From Opitutales bacterium (GTDB lineage Bacteria; Verrucomicrobiota; Verrucomicrobiia; Opitutales; Seribacteraceae), in contig JABBBW010000114.1 in the NCBI GenBank assembly GCA_018607205.1, positions 1-64,000 on the forward strand: 64,000 nucleotides of DNA. Reading direction: 5' to 3'. The notes under the pieces were generated by a model. The model saw only the letters and a list, made by a program, of their open reading frames with translations. It was not told where the DNA came from and searched no databases. The translations under genes and the position numbers were made by a program. Shown piece after piece: positions 3,905-44,279 of the stretch (within the stretch, counting starts at the first letter, position 1; each line of letters opens with the position of its first letter).

Positions 3905-4218
3905 CAATGGCCGCTAAGAAAACAGAGGTTGATCCCATTCCTGATCTCGATTCACTCGCCCAGGCGGCTGAGTGCCTGCGGGCCCTGGCTCATCCCATGC
4001 GCCTGAAAATTCTTTTCCTGCTCGAGTCAAATCGTTGGACGGTGGGGGAGTTGGCCAAGGAATGCTCCATTCGCAGTCATGTTGCCTCCGAGCACCTACG
4101 CTTGATGCAGCGGTGTGGGATGTTGTCGGTCGAGAAGGAAGGGCAAAAGACCTACTATCAGATCTGCGAGTCCCAGGTGCACGCCATCCTTGCCTGCATG
4201 CGGGAAAAATTTTCCTAA
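3901..4218 (+). CDS. ArsR-family winged-helix transcriptional regulator
   Basis: Small repressor-type regulator of 105 residues. The start is taken at the ATG overlapping the preceding stop (ATGA); the frame stays open further upstream but there it only shadows the MBL gene. The body matches the ArsR fold: ALAHPMRLKILFLL, then WTVGELAKECSIRSHVASEHLRL as the recognition region, then a GQKTYYQI wing. It has no CxC metal motif in the recognition helix, but it has five cysteines (C25, C55, C72, C89, C99). Since both neighbours are rhodanese proteins, a thiol- or persulfide-sensing role like that of BigR/SqrR is plausible, although the two cysteines those proteins use do not align obviously here. 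Confidence 0.85.
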   Translation: MTMAAKKTEVDPIPDLDSLAQAAECLRALAHPMRLKILFLLESNRWTVGELAKECSIRSHVASEHLRLMQRCGMLSVEKEGQKTYYQICESQVHAILACMREKFS

Positions 4219-4246
4219 TTATAACTCTTAAAAGAAAACAAAACTT

Positions 4247-4759
4247 ATGAAAAACCTCACTGTTGAACAATCCCACCATGAACGCCAGGCAAACTCATCG
4301 ATTCCGCTGATCGATGTGCGCACACCCGCGGAGTATGGCTCCCTCCACGCCGAATCCGCTCAGAGTCATCCGATGGAATCCCTGGATATCGGCAACTTTC
4401 CTTTTTCAAAGGATCAGGAAATTCATGTCATTTGCCAGTCAGGCGGGCGTTCGATGAAAGTATGTCAGAAACTGGAATCGGCTGGTTTTGAGAGGGTGGT
4501 CAATGTGGAGGGCGGAACCTCCGCCTGGGATGGTGCCGGACTTCCAGTCATTGCCGGGAAAAAGGCCATGTCTTTGGAGAGACAGGTACGAATTGCCGCG
4601 GGTGCTCTGGTGGTCATTGGAGCGGTGGTCGGACATTTCTACAATCCAGCTGGTTATGGATTGTCAGCCTTTGTCGGTGCAGGTTTAGTTTTTGCAGGGG
4701 TTACAGATACCTGTGGAATGGGAATGATTATAGCTAAAATGCCCTGGAACCGTGCCTAG
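4247..4759 (+). CDS. Rhodanese domain with C-terminal DUF2892 membrane anchor (YgaP-like)
   Basis: Membrane-bound sulfurtransferase, 170 residues. Residues 20-105 form a rhodanese domain with the catalytic loop CQSGGRS (C63). From about residue 110 there are two hydrophobic helices of the DUF2892 type, ending in a TCGMGMIIAKMPWN tail as in E. coli YgaP. It lies 28 bases after the ArsR gene and completes a sulfur-handling operon: MBL-rhodanese hydrolase, regulator and membrane rhodanese. Homologues transfer sulfane sulfur to thiol acceptors at the inner membrane. The partner here is unknown. Confidence 0.85.
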   Translation: MKNLTVEQSHHERQANSSIPLIDVRTPAEYGSLHAESAQSHPMESLDIGNFPFSKDQEIHVICQSGGRSMKVCQKLESAGFERVVNVEGGTSAWDGAGLPVIAGKKAMSLERQVRIAAGALVVIGAVVGHFYNPAGYGLSAFVGAGLVFAGVTDTCGMGMIIAKMPWNRA

Positions 4760-4769
4760 CGCATTCTTC

Positions 4770-5885
4770 TTACCAGACTTCTATGGGTCCTTTGGGTACA
4801 GCAATTTCTTTTCTCTGCTTTGCTTGGTGTGCGACTTCCTCTTCCATAAAAGAGGCAATCATCGGAGGCATTTGATAGCGATCAAGCAGTTCCCCTGAGT
4901 CATCGGTGAATTTCTTTCTCCATTCCAAGTAATCGGTTAAAACCCTCTCGAAGTCTGATCTTGAACTGATCCTGACCACGGCGTTATTGAATGGCTTGAC
5001 TGGGCCAAATCGCTTGGAATACCACGGAGCAACTTTACGAAACTGGAGAGATCCACGATCCTCGCCAAATACTTCTACCATCAGATCGTAATGCCTGCGC
5101 ATGACCCGTATTCTTTCATCAAAACTAGGCTCAGAGGGTAGGACTCCTGTTTCTAAATATTTCTGGGTGTGGAGAAAAATCCAGGGGTTGTAGAAGGCTC
5201 CCCGGCCAGCGGAAATTCCATGACACCCGGTTTGTTCAATCATGTGCTTGGCGGCATCAGGGGTGGTAATATCCCCATTCCCAATGACTGGGATCTTGTC
5301 GACTGCTTCTACCACTTTACGAATACCTTCCAGGTTAACCACACCGTCAAACCCTTGTGCTCTGGTTCTACCATGAACGAAAATGGCTGCCACCCCGGCA
5401 TCTTCCAAGGCACGGGCAAGGTTTGGAGCGGTGAGGTTTTGATCGTCCCAACCTAATCGCATCTTTGCGGTAATCGGTACGGGCACTGCTTCGACCATGG
5501 TACGGATCAATTCCTGAGTTTTGGGCAGCTCCGTCATCATACTGGCTCCGCCTCCGGTTTTGGTAACCTTTGGTACGGGGCAGCCCATGTTGACATCGAT
5601 GGAATCGATCCCTTTTTCAACAAGCATCACCGCGGCATCTCTCATTTCCTCTTTGACGCCACCAAATAATTGAACGGACAGGGGGTTATCCTGCTTATTC
5701 GTTTCAATTAATTTGAGTGCTTTGGGGTTCTGTTCAATGAGGGATCGGGCGTTTACAAGATCTGTGGTGCAAAGATCAACCCCGCCAATTTCGCGGATGA
5801 CCAAACGGAAGGGCAGGTTGGTGTATCCTGCAAGAGGTGACAGGAAAAGATTGGATTTGAGCGGTAGCTGACCCAAGGAGAACAT
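4770..5885 (-). CDS. dusB: tRNA-dihydrouridine synthase (DusB-like)
   Basis: FMN-dependent enzyme that reduces uridines in the tRNA D-loop, 371 residues. The N-terminal TIM-barrel opening FLSPLAGYTNLPFR, the catalytic loop MGCPVPKVTKTGGGASMM with its cysteine, KMRLGWDD, VHGRTRAQGFDG and IGNGDITTPDAA are characteristic of the Dus family. The tail beyond residue 310 is longer than in short Dus proteins. It is convergent with the rhodanese gene, with only 10 bases between the stops, and 71 bases separate its start from the next minus-strand gene. Confidence 0.9.
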   Translation of the reverse strand: MFSLGQLPLKSNLFLSPLAGYTNLPFRLVIREIGGVDLCTTDLVNARSLIEQNPKALKLIETNKQDNPLSVQLFGGVKEEMRDAAVMLVEKGIDSIDVNMGCPVPKVTKTGGGASMMTELPKTQELIRTMVEAVPVPITAKMRLGWDDQNLTAPNLARALEDAGVAAIFVHGRTRAQGFDGVVNLEGIRKVVEAVDKIPVIGNGDITTPDAAKHMIEQTGCHGISAGRGAFYNPWIFLHTQKYLETGVLPSEPSFDERIRVMRRHYDLMVEVFGEDRGSLQFRKVAPWYSKRFGPVKPFNNAVVRISSRSDFERVLTDYLEWRKKFTDDSGELLDRYQMPPMIASFMEEEVAHQAKQRKEIAVPKGPIEVW

Positions 5886-5956
5886 GAGCCATAGACTGAA
5901 GAATTACCTGATTTTTACAATCCAACAAAACAGACTTTTTTCTTCCGTTTGCTTGT

Positions 5957-41455: not shown

Positions 41456-41798
41456 TCCCATTTAAAAAAAGTTTAGGGAAGGTTTGCTGAGTTCAGTCAA
41501 AGGTTTGGCCATTGGCTAACTGACCATTTAAATGATTGTGTTTGCCTGTAAGTACATCTGCTCGGATCGGGGTGCATATGGAATTGGTGACAAAGGTATT
41601 ATAATCCGAAAAAAATAGTGAGAATATTTGGCTGCTTGCCTGAAGGCCAAAAGGCAGAGCCCATTAAAAAAAAGGTATAAAATGTAAATGGATTTCATTT
41701 CTGAAGTTAGTTTTAAAGTAAAATTGCCTGGCAACCATCAAATGGTAGGGGGGCGAATGAAATCGCCATGGATTCGAAGCAGGTCAAAATATAACATT

Positions 41799-43589
41799 AT
41801 GCCTAACACCATGCCTGCTTTTCGCCGGACCATTCCCTTGCTGGTCTCCCAAACGATCGGGGCGTTCAATGATAACGCGGTGAAAGCATTTTTGCCTGTA
41901 CTCGCAGCCTATCATGTTGGCAAGGGAAGTATGGACTTGGTGAACCAACAAGTTTCTTTTCTCCTTATTCTTCCATTTATCATCTTTGCTCCTTTAGCCG
42001 GTTGGACTGCGGATCGATTTTCTAAAAAAAGGGTAATTGGAGTCAGCCTGTTGGCTCAATTGATCGGGTTAGGTATTTTGGCTGCGGGAACCAGTTTCCA
42101 AAGCCTTGCTATTTGTATGGTTGGCTTTTTTTTCCTCTCCACCCAGTCCAGCTTTTTGTCACCCGCTAAGAAAGGCATTCTTAAAGAAATGGTGGGCTAT
42201 GAACAACTTGGCAAAGCGGTTGGGTGGATGGAGATGCTTACCATTGTGGGTATACTAGTTGGTGCTTTCTCTGGTGCCGTTCTTTTTGATCGCTGGGTTG
42301 TTGGTCTTGGCGGTTGGGCAACCGCCCAGGCTATCACCTTGTTAATTGCCGGACTCGCCCTAGTTTCGTGGTTGGTTTATCTGCCAACTCCTGAAACCAA
42401 GGTTTTAAAGACCCGACCTTTCCACCCGCAAATTTTGTATTCTCATCTTGGTGATCTGGTCGATCTTTTAAAGCGTCCAGGCATAAAGTGGGCGGCCTTG
42501 GGGGATGCCTGTTTTTGGGCAGTGGGTGGCTTTTTTTACCTTTTGTTAGTCAAACTTTCTGGAGAGGTTACCGTGGGGAAGGTCGGAATGGGGAGTCTTT
42601 ACGGATATTGGTTTTTACTTATGGGAATGGGCATCATGGTTGGTTGTTTGTTTTGTGCTTATTTAAATCGTGGAAGAATTGAGCTCGGTTTATGTCCGAT
42701 CGGAGCGATTGGTATGACGCTAAGTTTAGTAGGGTTGTACCAAGCTACTGCACCTGGAGGTATTTTTGAGCTCCTTTGCATCTCCCTTGGTTTTTTTGGA
42801 GCATTATTTTTTGTCCCCTTGAACGGATATTTGCAGGATCGTGCAGGGGAGCAAGAACGCGGGAAAATCCTTGCCGCATCCAACCTGCTTACCCAATTGG
42901 GTGGAATCTCCCTAATCGGGACTCATGCCTTGTTTTCCAATGTTTTTGGAATGACTGCAAAAGAGGAAATGTTTGTTCTCATCGTTCCACTCGGCTTTGT
43001 CGCTTTAGTCTCTTTTATTTGTTTATTTGAAGATTTTCTTCGTGTCTGGTTCCATCTGTTTCTACGTATCTTCTATCGAATTAAAATCGAGGGTATGGAA
43101 AATTTCCCGGAACGGGGAGGCGTTTTATTGGTGAGTAATCATTTATCTTATGCCGACCCAGTCTTTATAGGAGCTGCGTTTCCTCGTAAAGTTCGCTACC
43201 TTGCACACGCTGATTTGGCCAATTCCCGTATTCTTGAATGGGTTTTTCGCCTAACCGAAACCCTAACTATCTCTTCGAGCAAATCGCTTGCCTCCTTTCG
43301 TCAATCAATTGAACGCTTGGGTAGGGGAGTTCCCTTGTGCTTATTTGCCGAAGGGGGAATTTCCCGAGTCGGAGTTACCCTAGGCTTCAAGCGAGGTTCA
43401 GTGCTCTTGGCAAAGTACGGAAAAGTTCCCATCCTACCTGTCTACCTTGATGGGGTTTGGGGATCGGTTTTTAGCCGGTCCGGAGGAAGTTTTTTCTGGA
43501 AGTTTCCCCGTTTCTTTCCTTACCGCATGTCGGTGCGGGTGGGGAGTCCAATAAGTTTTAGGCAGGCAAATTCAGAATCAGTCAGGTAA
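41799..43589 (+). CDS. MFS transporter fused to lysophospholipid acyltransferase (LplT-Aas type)
   Basis: 596 residues from ATG 41799; ATGs at 41757, 41742 and 41688 are in frame, but the family N-terminus (IPLLVSQTIGAFNDNAVKAF) starts just after 41799. Residues 1-400 form twelve helices of an LplT-like lysophospholipid flippase. Residues 415-590 form a PlsC domain: LVSNHLSYADPVF (HxxxxD), LFAEGGISRVG, GFKRGSVLLAKYG, LPVYLDGVWGSVF. In the full fusion this would be followed by an acyl-ACP synthetase. Here the frame ends at TAA, and the continuing frame encodes a shrunken relic of that domain. Confidence 0.88.
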   Translation: MPNTMPAFRRTIPLLVSQTIGAFNDNAVKAFLPVLAAYHVGKGSMDLVNQQVSFLLILPFIIFAPLAGWTADRFSKKRVIGVSLLAQLIGLGILAAGTSFQSLAICMVGFFFLSTQSSFLSPAKKGILKEMVGYEQLGKAVGWMEMLTIVGILVGAFSGAVLFDRWVVGLGGWATAQAITLLIAGLALVSWLVYLPTPETKVLKTRPFHPQILYSHLGDLVDLLKRPGIKWAALGDACFWAVGGFFYLLLVKLSGEVTVGKVGMGSLYGYWFLLMGMGIMVGCLFCAYLNRGRIELGLCPIGAIGMTLSLVGLYQATAPGGIFELLCISLGFFGALFFVPLNGYLQDRAGEQERGKILAASNLLTQLGGISLIGTHALFSNVFGMTAKEEMFVLIVPLGFVALVSFICLFEDFLRVWFHLFLRIFYRIKIEGMENFPERGGVLLVSNHLSYADPVFIGAAFPRKVRYLAHADLANSRILEWVFRLTETLTISSSKSLASFRQSIERLGRGVPLCLFAEGGISRVGVTLGFKRGSVLLAKYGKVPILPVYLDGVWGSVFSRSGGSFFWKFPRFFPYRMSVRVGSPISFRQANSESVR

Positions 43590-43595
43590 GAGGTT

Positions 43596-44279
43596 TTGGA
43601 GCTTGGGCGACTGTCCTTTAATCAAAGAATGCCTTCACATGAAGAAATGAAGTACCAATTATGTAGGCAAATTTTCCGAAAAAGATCCGGTATATTTTTG
43701 ATTAACCAAAACGGTTTGGAAATTAAATGGGATTCTTTTATTGAAGCAATTCGGGATCCAATCATCGAATTACCAAATCCTGCGAATGAGTGGGCGAAAA
43801 GGGTACGGGCAGTCACTAAGCATTTTGCTGAAGGCCATCGCGTTATCTACACAAACTGGATAAGATTAAAAGAGACCAACCTTTTAAATTGTGAAGGATT
43901 ACTAATAGAAAAAAGTTCATTTGTGTGGTATGAGCAGTGGTTCCCTTGGTTTCCTCTTTTAAACAACCGAACGGTACTTGAATCTAAAACCGGTGAATGG
44001 GAGGTACTGAAAAAGGAAACCATTAAGGAGGGCAAATCATCTTATCGGGTAACAGGATTGGCCAGTCCTCTTAATGGATTGATTGCCTTGAATTTGCCAA
44101 ATGAAAACGAGGGAGACACCATACAACCTGGACACAGGCATGGAACATTGGGTCGTTTGCTGCCTGGTTTTTCCTACCAATCAGTTTCTGGAGAATTGAT
44201 TTTAAAAGGGCTAGGAATTGATGAGGAACTTATAAAAGCCAGAAATGTGGACCCGGAAGGTTTTTTACTTCCTGAGTGA
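43596..44279 (+). CDS. Degenerate acyl-ACP synthetase (AMP-binding) domain, in frame with the preceding gene
   Basis: 227 residues if read from TTG 43596, or from ATG 43629. It is in the same frame as the MFS-acyltransferase, only one TAA (43587-43589) away. Reading through would give SESVR-stop-EVLELGRLSFNQR, which fits the linker of Aas-type fusions. The C-terminal part VTGLASPLNGLIALNLP, then QPGHRHGTLGRLLPG and SGELILKGLG, matches the TECSP...GTVGRLLPG...GELLLKG block of the AMP-binding domain. The ATP loop and the distal lysine domain are absent, and the TE of the adenylation motif is lost. It is a relic or a repurposed domain, not an active ligase. An independent translation start cannot be excluded. 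Confidence 0.6.
   Translation: MELGRLSFNQRMPSHEEMKYQLCRQIFRKRSGIFLINQNGLEIKWDSFIEAIRDPIIELPNPANEWAKRVRAVTKHFAEGHRVIYTNWIRLKETNLLNCEGLLIEKSSFVWYEQWFPWFPLLNNRTVLESKTGEWEVLKKETIKEGKSSYRVTGLASPLNGLIALNLPNENEGDTIQPGHRHGTLGRLLPGFSYQSVSGELILKGLGIDEELIKARNVDPEGFLLPE

Follow-up and report, generated by a model that had tools for sequence, protein, structure and literature searches.

What becomes of a fused enzyme when a stop codon falls between its domains? In the 64,000-nucleotide window analysed here, taken from the draft metagenome assembly of a marine Opitutales bacterium (G000; 2.0 Mb, 208 contigs, 92% complete), an MFS–PlsC gene and the next ORF lie in the same frame and are split by a TAA alone. 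The sequence-only reading took the pair for an Aas-type MFS–PlsC–ligase fusion whose linker runs across the stop. Its coordinates were confirmed (Table 1), and the fusion type and the linker running across the stop are supported. The arrangement is no accident, since relatives do carry both ORFs as one frame.

Table 1 Features of the interrupted fusion in the window.
Feature	Positions	Strand	Basis
MFS (LplT-like) and PlsC ORF, 596 aa	41799–43586	+	ATG at 41799; start agrees with starts in relatives
PlsC acyltransferase domain, PF01553, with NHLSYADP and FAEG motifs	43077–43448	+	Domain and motif search
Linker helix (fusion residues 592–610) from PlsC to the C-terminal domain, spanning the stop site	43572–43628	+	AlphaFold2 model of intact relative L090
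In-frame TAA; CAA (Gln) in G003 and G007	43587–43589	+	
Open frame of 229 codons plus TGA (44277–44279); compact ANL/AMP-binding-derived domain without catalytic motifs	43590–44279	+	
TTG, candidate re-initiation codon; AAGAGG only 2 nt before it, poor spacing	43596–43598	+	Direct reading
First in-frame ATG past the TAA, no clear ribosome-binding site	43629–43631	+	Direct reading
Block most readily recognised as ligase-derived, GLASPLNGLIALNLP...GTLGRLLPG; counterpart of the post-A5 stretch in full ligases	44052–44171	+	
C-terminal D-x-x-G-F-L end, the strand between A7 and A8, where full ligases go on	44250–44276	+	

Domains and descent of the fusion

The 596-aa part matches MFS_1 (PF07690, E = 6.2e-28) and Acyltransferase/PlsC (PF01553, E = 1.1e-21) in Pfam. 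Its MFS region partly reaches the LplT equivalog NF008397 (98 of 297 bits), and the 596 residues match the N-terminal half of NF006386, the model for Aas fusions (E = 2.1e-117, aligned from model position 10); the full model scores 393.4 bits on the window, below its curated cut-off of 1221. The PlsC motifs NHxSxxD and FxEG are present in 29/29 rows of the Opitutales family, f1, to which G000 belongs. The continuous reading frame of an LplT–Aas fusion is broken by the TAA in the window and preserved in 27 relatives. Set against NF006386/PRK08633 (acyl-[ACP]-phospholipid O-acyltransferase), the window shares the MFS–PlsC order, the linker and a recognisable ligase remnant, but its ligase is ~230 aa rather than ~550, has no catalytic motif and is also cut off by the stop.

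Alone, the second ORF has zero matches in Pfam and a weak one to NF006386, at ligase profile positions 935–974 (E = 0.0031). Profile–profile comparison is far more telling: hhalign aligned the remnant family profile (all f1 rows) to the ligase half of full-length fusions with a probability of 96.0, and the ~265-aa forms with 97.6, at E-values of 4.9e-9 to 3.3e-12. One longer relative matches PF00501 at E = 1.3e-4, below the PF00501 cut-off. Despite the missing Pfam match, the AMP-binding remnant proposed from the window's letters is borne out, and the C-terminal domain is assigned by descent to the ANL (AMP-binding) superfamily.

The catalytic motifs have been stripped from this domain. A pattern search found motifs A3, A5, A7, A8 and A10 in 0/29 f1 rows, in agreement with the losses originally named; the same patterns occur in 19, 24, 24, 13 and 19, respectively, of the 24 long forms used as reference. 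Aligned with its nearest full-length proteins (family f18), the f1 remnant retains the linker and the first ~50–80 residues, loses the ATP-loop segment, retains the A4 region (where FHSFGFLVTLWYPLIKG becomes AWDQTWCLWAPLLG) and loses most of A4–A5; the post-A5 stretch and the D-x-x-G-F strand are kept, and the end precedes A8. With no ATP loop, no A5 or A7 motif and nothing of the C-terminal lysine subdomain left, the remnant is predicted to be incapable of activating fatty acids.

An AlphaFold2 model of the window's own 229 residues is compact and confident (pLDDT 89.6, pTM 0.86). Its top Foldseek matches in the PDB are the ANL enzymes MenE, MatB and oxalyl-CoA synthetase; since these are weak (best E = 0.065, none below 0.001), the model suggests a remodelled ANL piece, not a standard ANL domain. 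Searching solved structures with the remnant sequence returned only noise. The remnant may act as a scaffold or an acyl-ACP dock.

Short and long forms across the phylum

We sorted N-part matches from 289 genomes of the phylum by length. A long class of ~1110–1280 aa occurs in 29 genomes and a short class of ~820–1024-aa open frames in 32, all from families f23 and f27; one N-part match has no C domain. The nearest sister families of f1 carry full Aas fusions (~1130–1200 aa), and within the order f18, f79, f13, f10 and f21 are long. Inside f1 the remnant measures ~265 aa in genera g2 and g3 and ~230 aa in g1 and g4, indicating a further shrinkage from the larger size to the smaller. Family f7, of the same order, holds long forms together with natural two-domain MFS–PlsC proteins of ~606–616 aa that end in the linker (G386, G042, G357, G348 and G378), which would represent another loss of the ligase. 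Their architecture and end point match the predicted 596-aa product, but their state is fixed across several genomes and leaves no downstream remnant frame, unlike that of G000. On the tree, the f7 two-domain proteins (L218–L222) interleave with full three-domain proteins. At three f1-like loci beside nrnA (L120, L121 and L122), the MFS part alone is left, PlsC and the C-terminal domain having gone.

The short fusions of f23 and f27, two other families of this class, carry a remnant comparable to that of f1, likewise with none of A3, A5, A7, A8 and A10 and with the D-x-x-G-F-L end; they form a separate lineage on the tree, and their remnant differs from that of f1 in its N-terminal extent. The MFS–PlsC tree places f18 as sister to f1 and groups the long forms of f18, f79 and f13 with f1, and an AU test on it rejects a single clade of short forms (p = 1.9e-7; p = 0.02 with fewer rows). 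With the short forms split on this tree, shortening probably happened at least twice, with overlapping pieces kept. The competing account has the short form arising once in the class, with the full ligases of f13, f18 and f79 regained by recombination. It finds some backing in the likeness of the f1 and f23/f27 short domains to each other (hhalign probability 98.3, E = 1.5e-14), which exceeds their matches to full ligases (96.0 and 96.5). The tree and the AU test speak against it, however, and it needs a regain at least once in a common stem or several times over; we think it rather unlikely. Far less credible is that the ligase core was deleted in G000's own recent history, in one decay process. 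This was the first alternative of the sequence-only reading, and close relatives refute it, the core being absent from all 29 family sequences, 27 intact fusions among them; decay of the ligase in a single step in G000 is ruled out by the same absence. "Recent decay" would account for the stop, which is private to G000 and lies in a genus losing the gene, but not for the short ligase, which is family-wide.

A wider proposal, which we put forward tentatively as a serious possibility, is that at least two Verrucomicrobiota lineages independently shrank the acyl-ACP synthetase to a compact, folded, non-catalytic domain with the same retained pieces, and that selection maintains this domain for a new function in the fused flippase–acyltransferase, be it as scaffold, allosteric partner or acyl-ACP dock. 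Our search of open-licence papers turned up no account of the short form. One phylum offers a graded series (full ligase, ~265-aa remnant, ~230-aa remnant, none, flippase alone) that shows how a fused enzyme may shed catalysis yet keep a folded piece, and that provides ready comparisons for what the Aas synthetase half adds besides chemistry. The conserved dead ligase remnant, more than the stop, is the part worth following.

The stop codon and selection on the remnant

Among 57 genomes searched around G000, the second part is present in 30, all from f1. In 27 of these 30, MFS, PlsC and remnant (~230–265 aa) form one unbroken frame of about 815–860 aa; an intact relative has 826 aa. Where records that carry the fusion are named, they are metagenome and single-cell genomes of marine Opitutales/Verrucomicrobia. 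The exceptions are G000, G005 and G006. G005 (L036, G005:C28) has an in-frame TAA of independent origin, which lies ~29 codons further 5', inside the final part of PlsC, in a T8A4 tract where G002 and G001 read AAA; its downstream frame is still open. G006 keeps a 108-aa 3' scrap with three stops, the rest of the fusion being deleted. Because G006 is about as near to G000 as G003 and G007 are (94.6–95.7% in flanking genes), loss of the gene is plausible in G000's group, and the genus shows repeated losses of the gene.

At the stop site, both closest intact relatives, G003 and G007, read CAA. Sister genomes share the missing core (all 29 f1 sequences) but not the stop, and the TAA is best explained as a private, recent C-to-T nonsense mutation (CAA to TAA). 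The window is collinear with G007 over 58 kb (91.9% identity). Of the roughly 50 genes compared, the fusion alone has an internal stop, and neither a frameshift nor any other internal stop was found. The remaining stop-bearing ORFs in this 58-kb comparison either overlap real genes in antisense or represent an upstream extension. The same gene set rules out generally poor assembly as the cause of the TAA, and recoding of TAA is ruled out by its internal occurrence in no other gene compared. Transcriptional slippage was also rejected, as a one-base shift would leave the in-frame stop in place. Taken alone, the nonsense mutation is ordinary gene erosion.

The remnant is under purifying selection, with omega of 0.11–0.32 in comparisons with usable counts; the G003/G007 pair gives 0.92, from only 20 differences. 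Omega of the N-part is 0.05–0.16 in most comparisons, the remnant being two to three times looser in most. The dN/dS analysis proposed for the second ORF, together with the 27 intact fusions, accords with the suggestion of a non-catalytic domain kept for another job, a state that is old, shared by the whole family and maintained by selection. Changes private to G000 in the remnant comprise 18 nonsynonymous and 18 synonymous, with no further stop. Neutrality predicts a nonsynonymous fraction of 0.69–0.77 and the G000 branch falls below it (p = 0.0004–0.014), so constraint on the remnant lasted for most of the branch. Such constraint fits a very recent stop, and also a product still being made.

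Two alternatives would keep the remnant in use in G000. In one, the halves are now separate subunits, made by re-initiation after the TAA, or read-through yields some full-length protein. An open frame of 229 codons, changes on the G000 branch that still look selected and the open downstream frame of G005 are all compatible with this, although a frame persisting after a recent stop is expected in any case (36 changes would leave it free of another stop with a probability of 0.13–0.20). Direct reading found no well-spaced ribosome-binding site before the second ORF, the signals at the candidate TTG and ATG being those of Table 1. Promoter-like matches are not above shuffles (3 found versus 4.1 expected), which also removes a second promoter for the C ORF, and G006 has lost the gene entirely. 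TAA is the least leaky stop; the codon 3' of it here is GAG, which is not known to make a leaky context. Read-through, as raised by the sequence-only reading, finds no sequence support, with no known leaky context and no other internal stop in ~50 genes, and we regard either route to continued production as very improbable. The other alternative, unlikely but less so, is that the TAA stems from faulty consensus or assembly and that the population itself, like its sisters, encodes the 826-aa fusion intact. Only a single base is at issue, in a draft of the contiguity and completeness given above, and selection on the remnant is not relaxed along the G000 branch. Against an error stand the ~50 clean genes of the G007 comparison and the independently damaged copies in two other members of the genus (G005 and G006), which make loss plausible.

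Proposed history and product

We consider it probable that the locus descends from a three-domain LplT–PlsC–acyl-ACP-synthetase (Aas) fusion, a reading that draws on the architecture, the motif loss, the stop, the sister codon, selection and the repeated losses in the genus. In the ancestor of f1, the ligase would have been cut to ~265 aa and then to ~230 aa, the catalytically dead remnant staying in the protein as a folded piece under selection. One C-to-T change in G000 would recently have removed this remnant from the product, leaving a 596-aa MFS–PlsC protein that is presumably still active. This protein would most likely flip lysophospholipids inward and re-acylate them with acyl-ACP from fatty acid synthesis. 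The downstream frame would be an untranslated, fresh pseudogene fragment that is set to decay.

The E. coli system pairs inward flipping of lysophospholipid, by LplT, with its re-acylation by Aas; LplT binds the transferase domain of Aas alone, leaving out the synthetase domain (PMC11416262). The window type resembles this system in the putative coupling of flipping to re-acylation, for which an LplT–transferase contact independent of the synthetase domain is a precedent. LplT and Aas are separate proteins in E. coli, whereas the window type is fused and is expected to have no acyl-ACP synthetase activity; its acyl donor must consequently come from elsewhere. A fusion that lacks an active ligase should manage both steps, provided that it draws acyl-ACP from fatty acid synthesis.

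Stand-alone PlsC is encoded in G001 and G003–G007, in an aroA-cmk-plsC cluster. As relatives own this gene, the fusion is taken to be an accessory remodelling enzyme and not the essential acyltransferase. The sole PF01553 protein found in G000 is the fusion, and the aroA-cmk-plsC region of this genome falls in an assembly gap; the absence of plsC is ascribed to the gap because the whole cluster, aroA and cmk included, is absent. The idea that the fusion is the cell's only PlsC was dropped, given the stand-alone gene in relatives and the region missing from this assembly. At the end of G000 contig C24, near 6226, the aroA-cmk-plsC-purC-lpdA stretch of G007 (L207) is absent, which looks like an assembly gap hiding a stand-alone plsC.

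Two further observations from the comparison with G007 concern other parts of the window. Just upstream of the fusion, on the minus strand, 41466–41673 holds a sulfatase gene remnant (NSICTPIRADVLTGKHNHLNG...); G007 has an intact 502-aa sulfatase at that site (L174:1951–3459), and the window has lost about 1.2 kb of the gene. Positions 3961–5948 are 99.2% identical to G007, against 91.9% over the rest of the 58 kb, and are likely, from this identity, a recent recombination patch. The segment adjoins rhodanese/MBL-fold sulfur genes.
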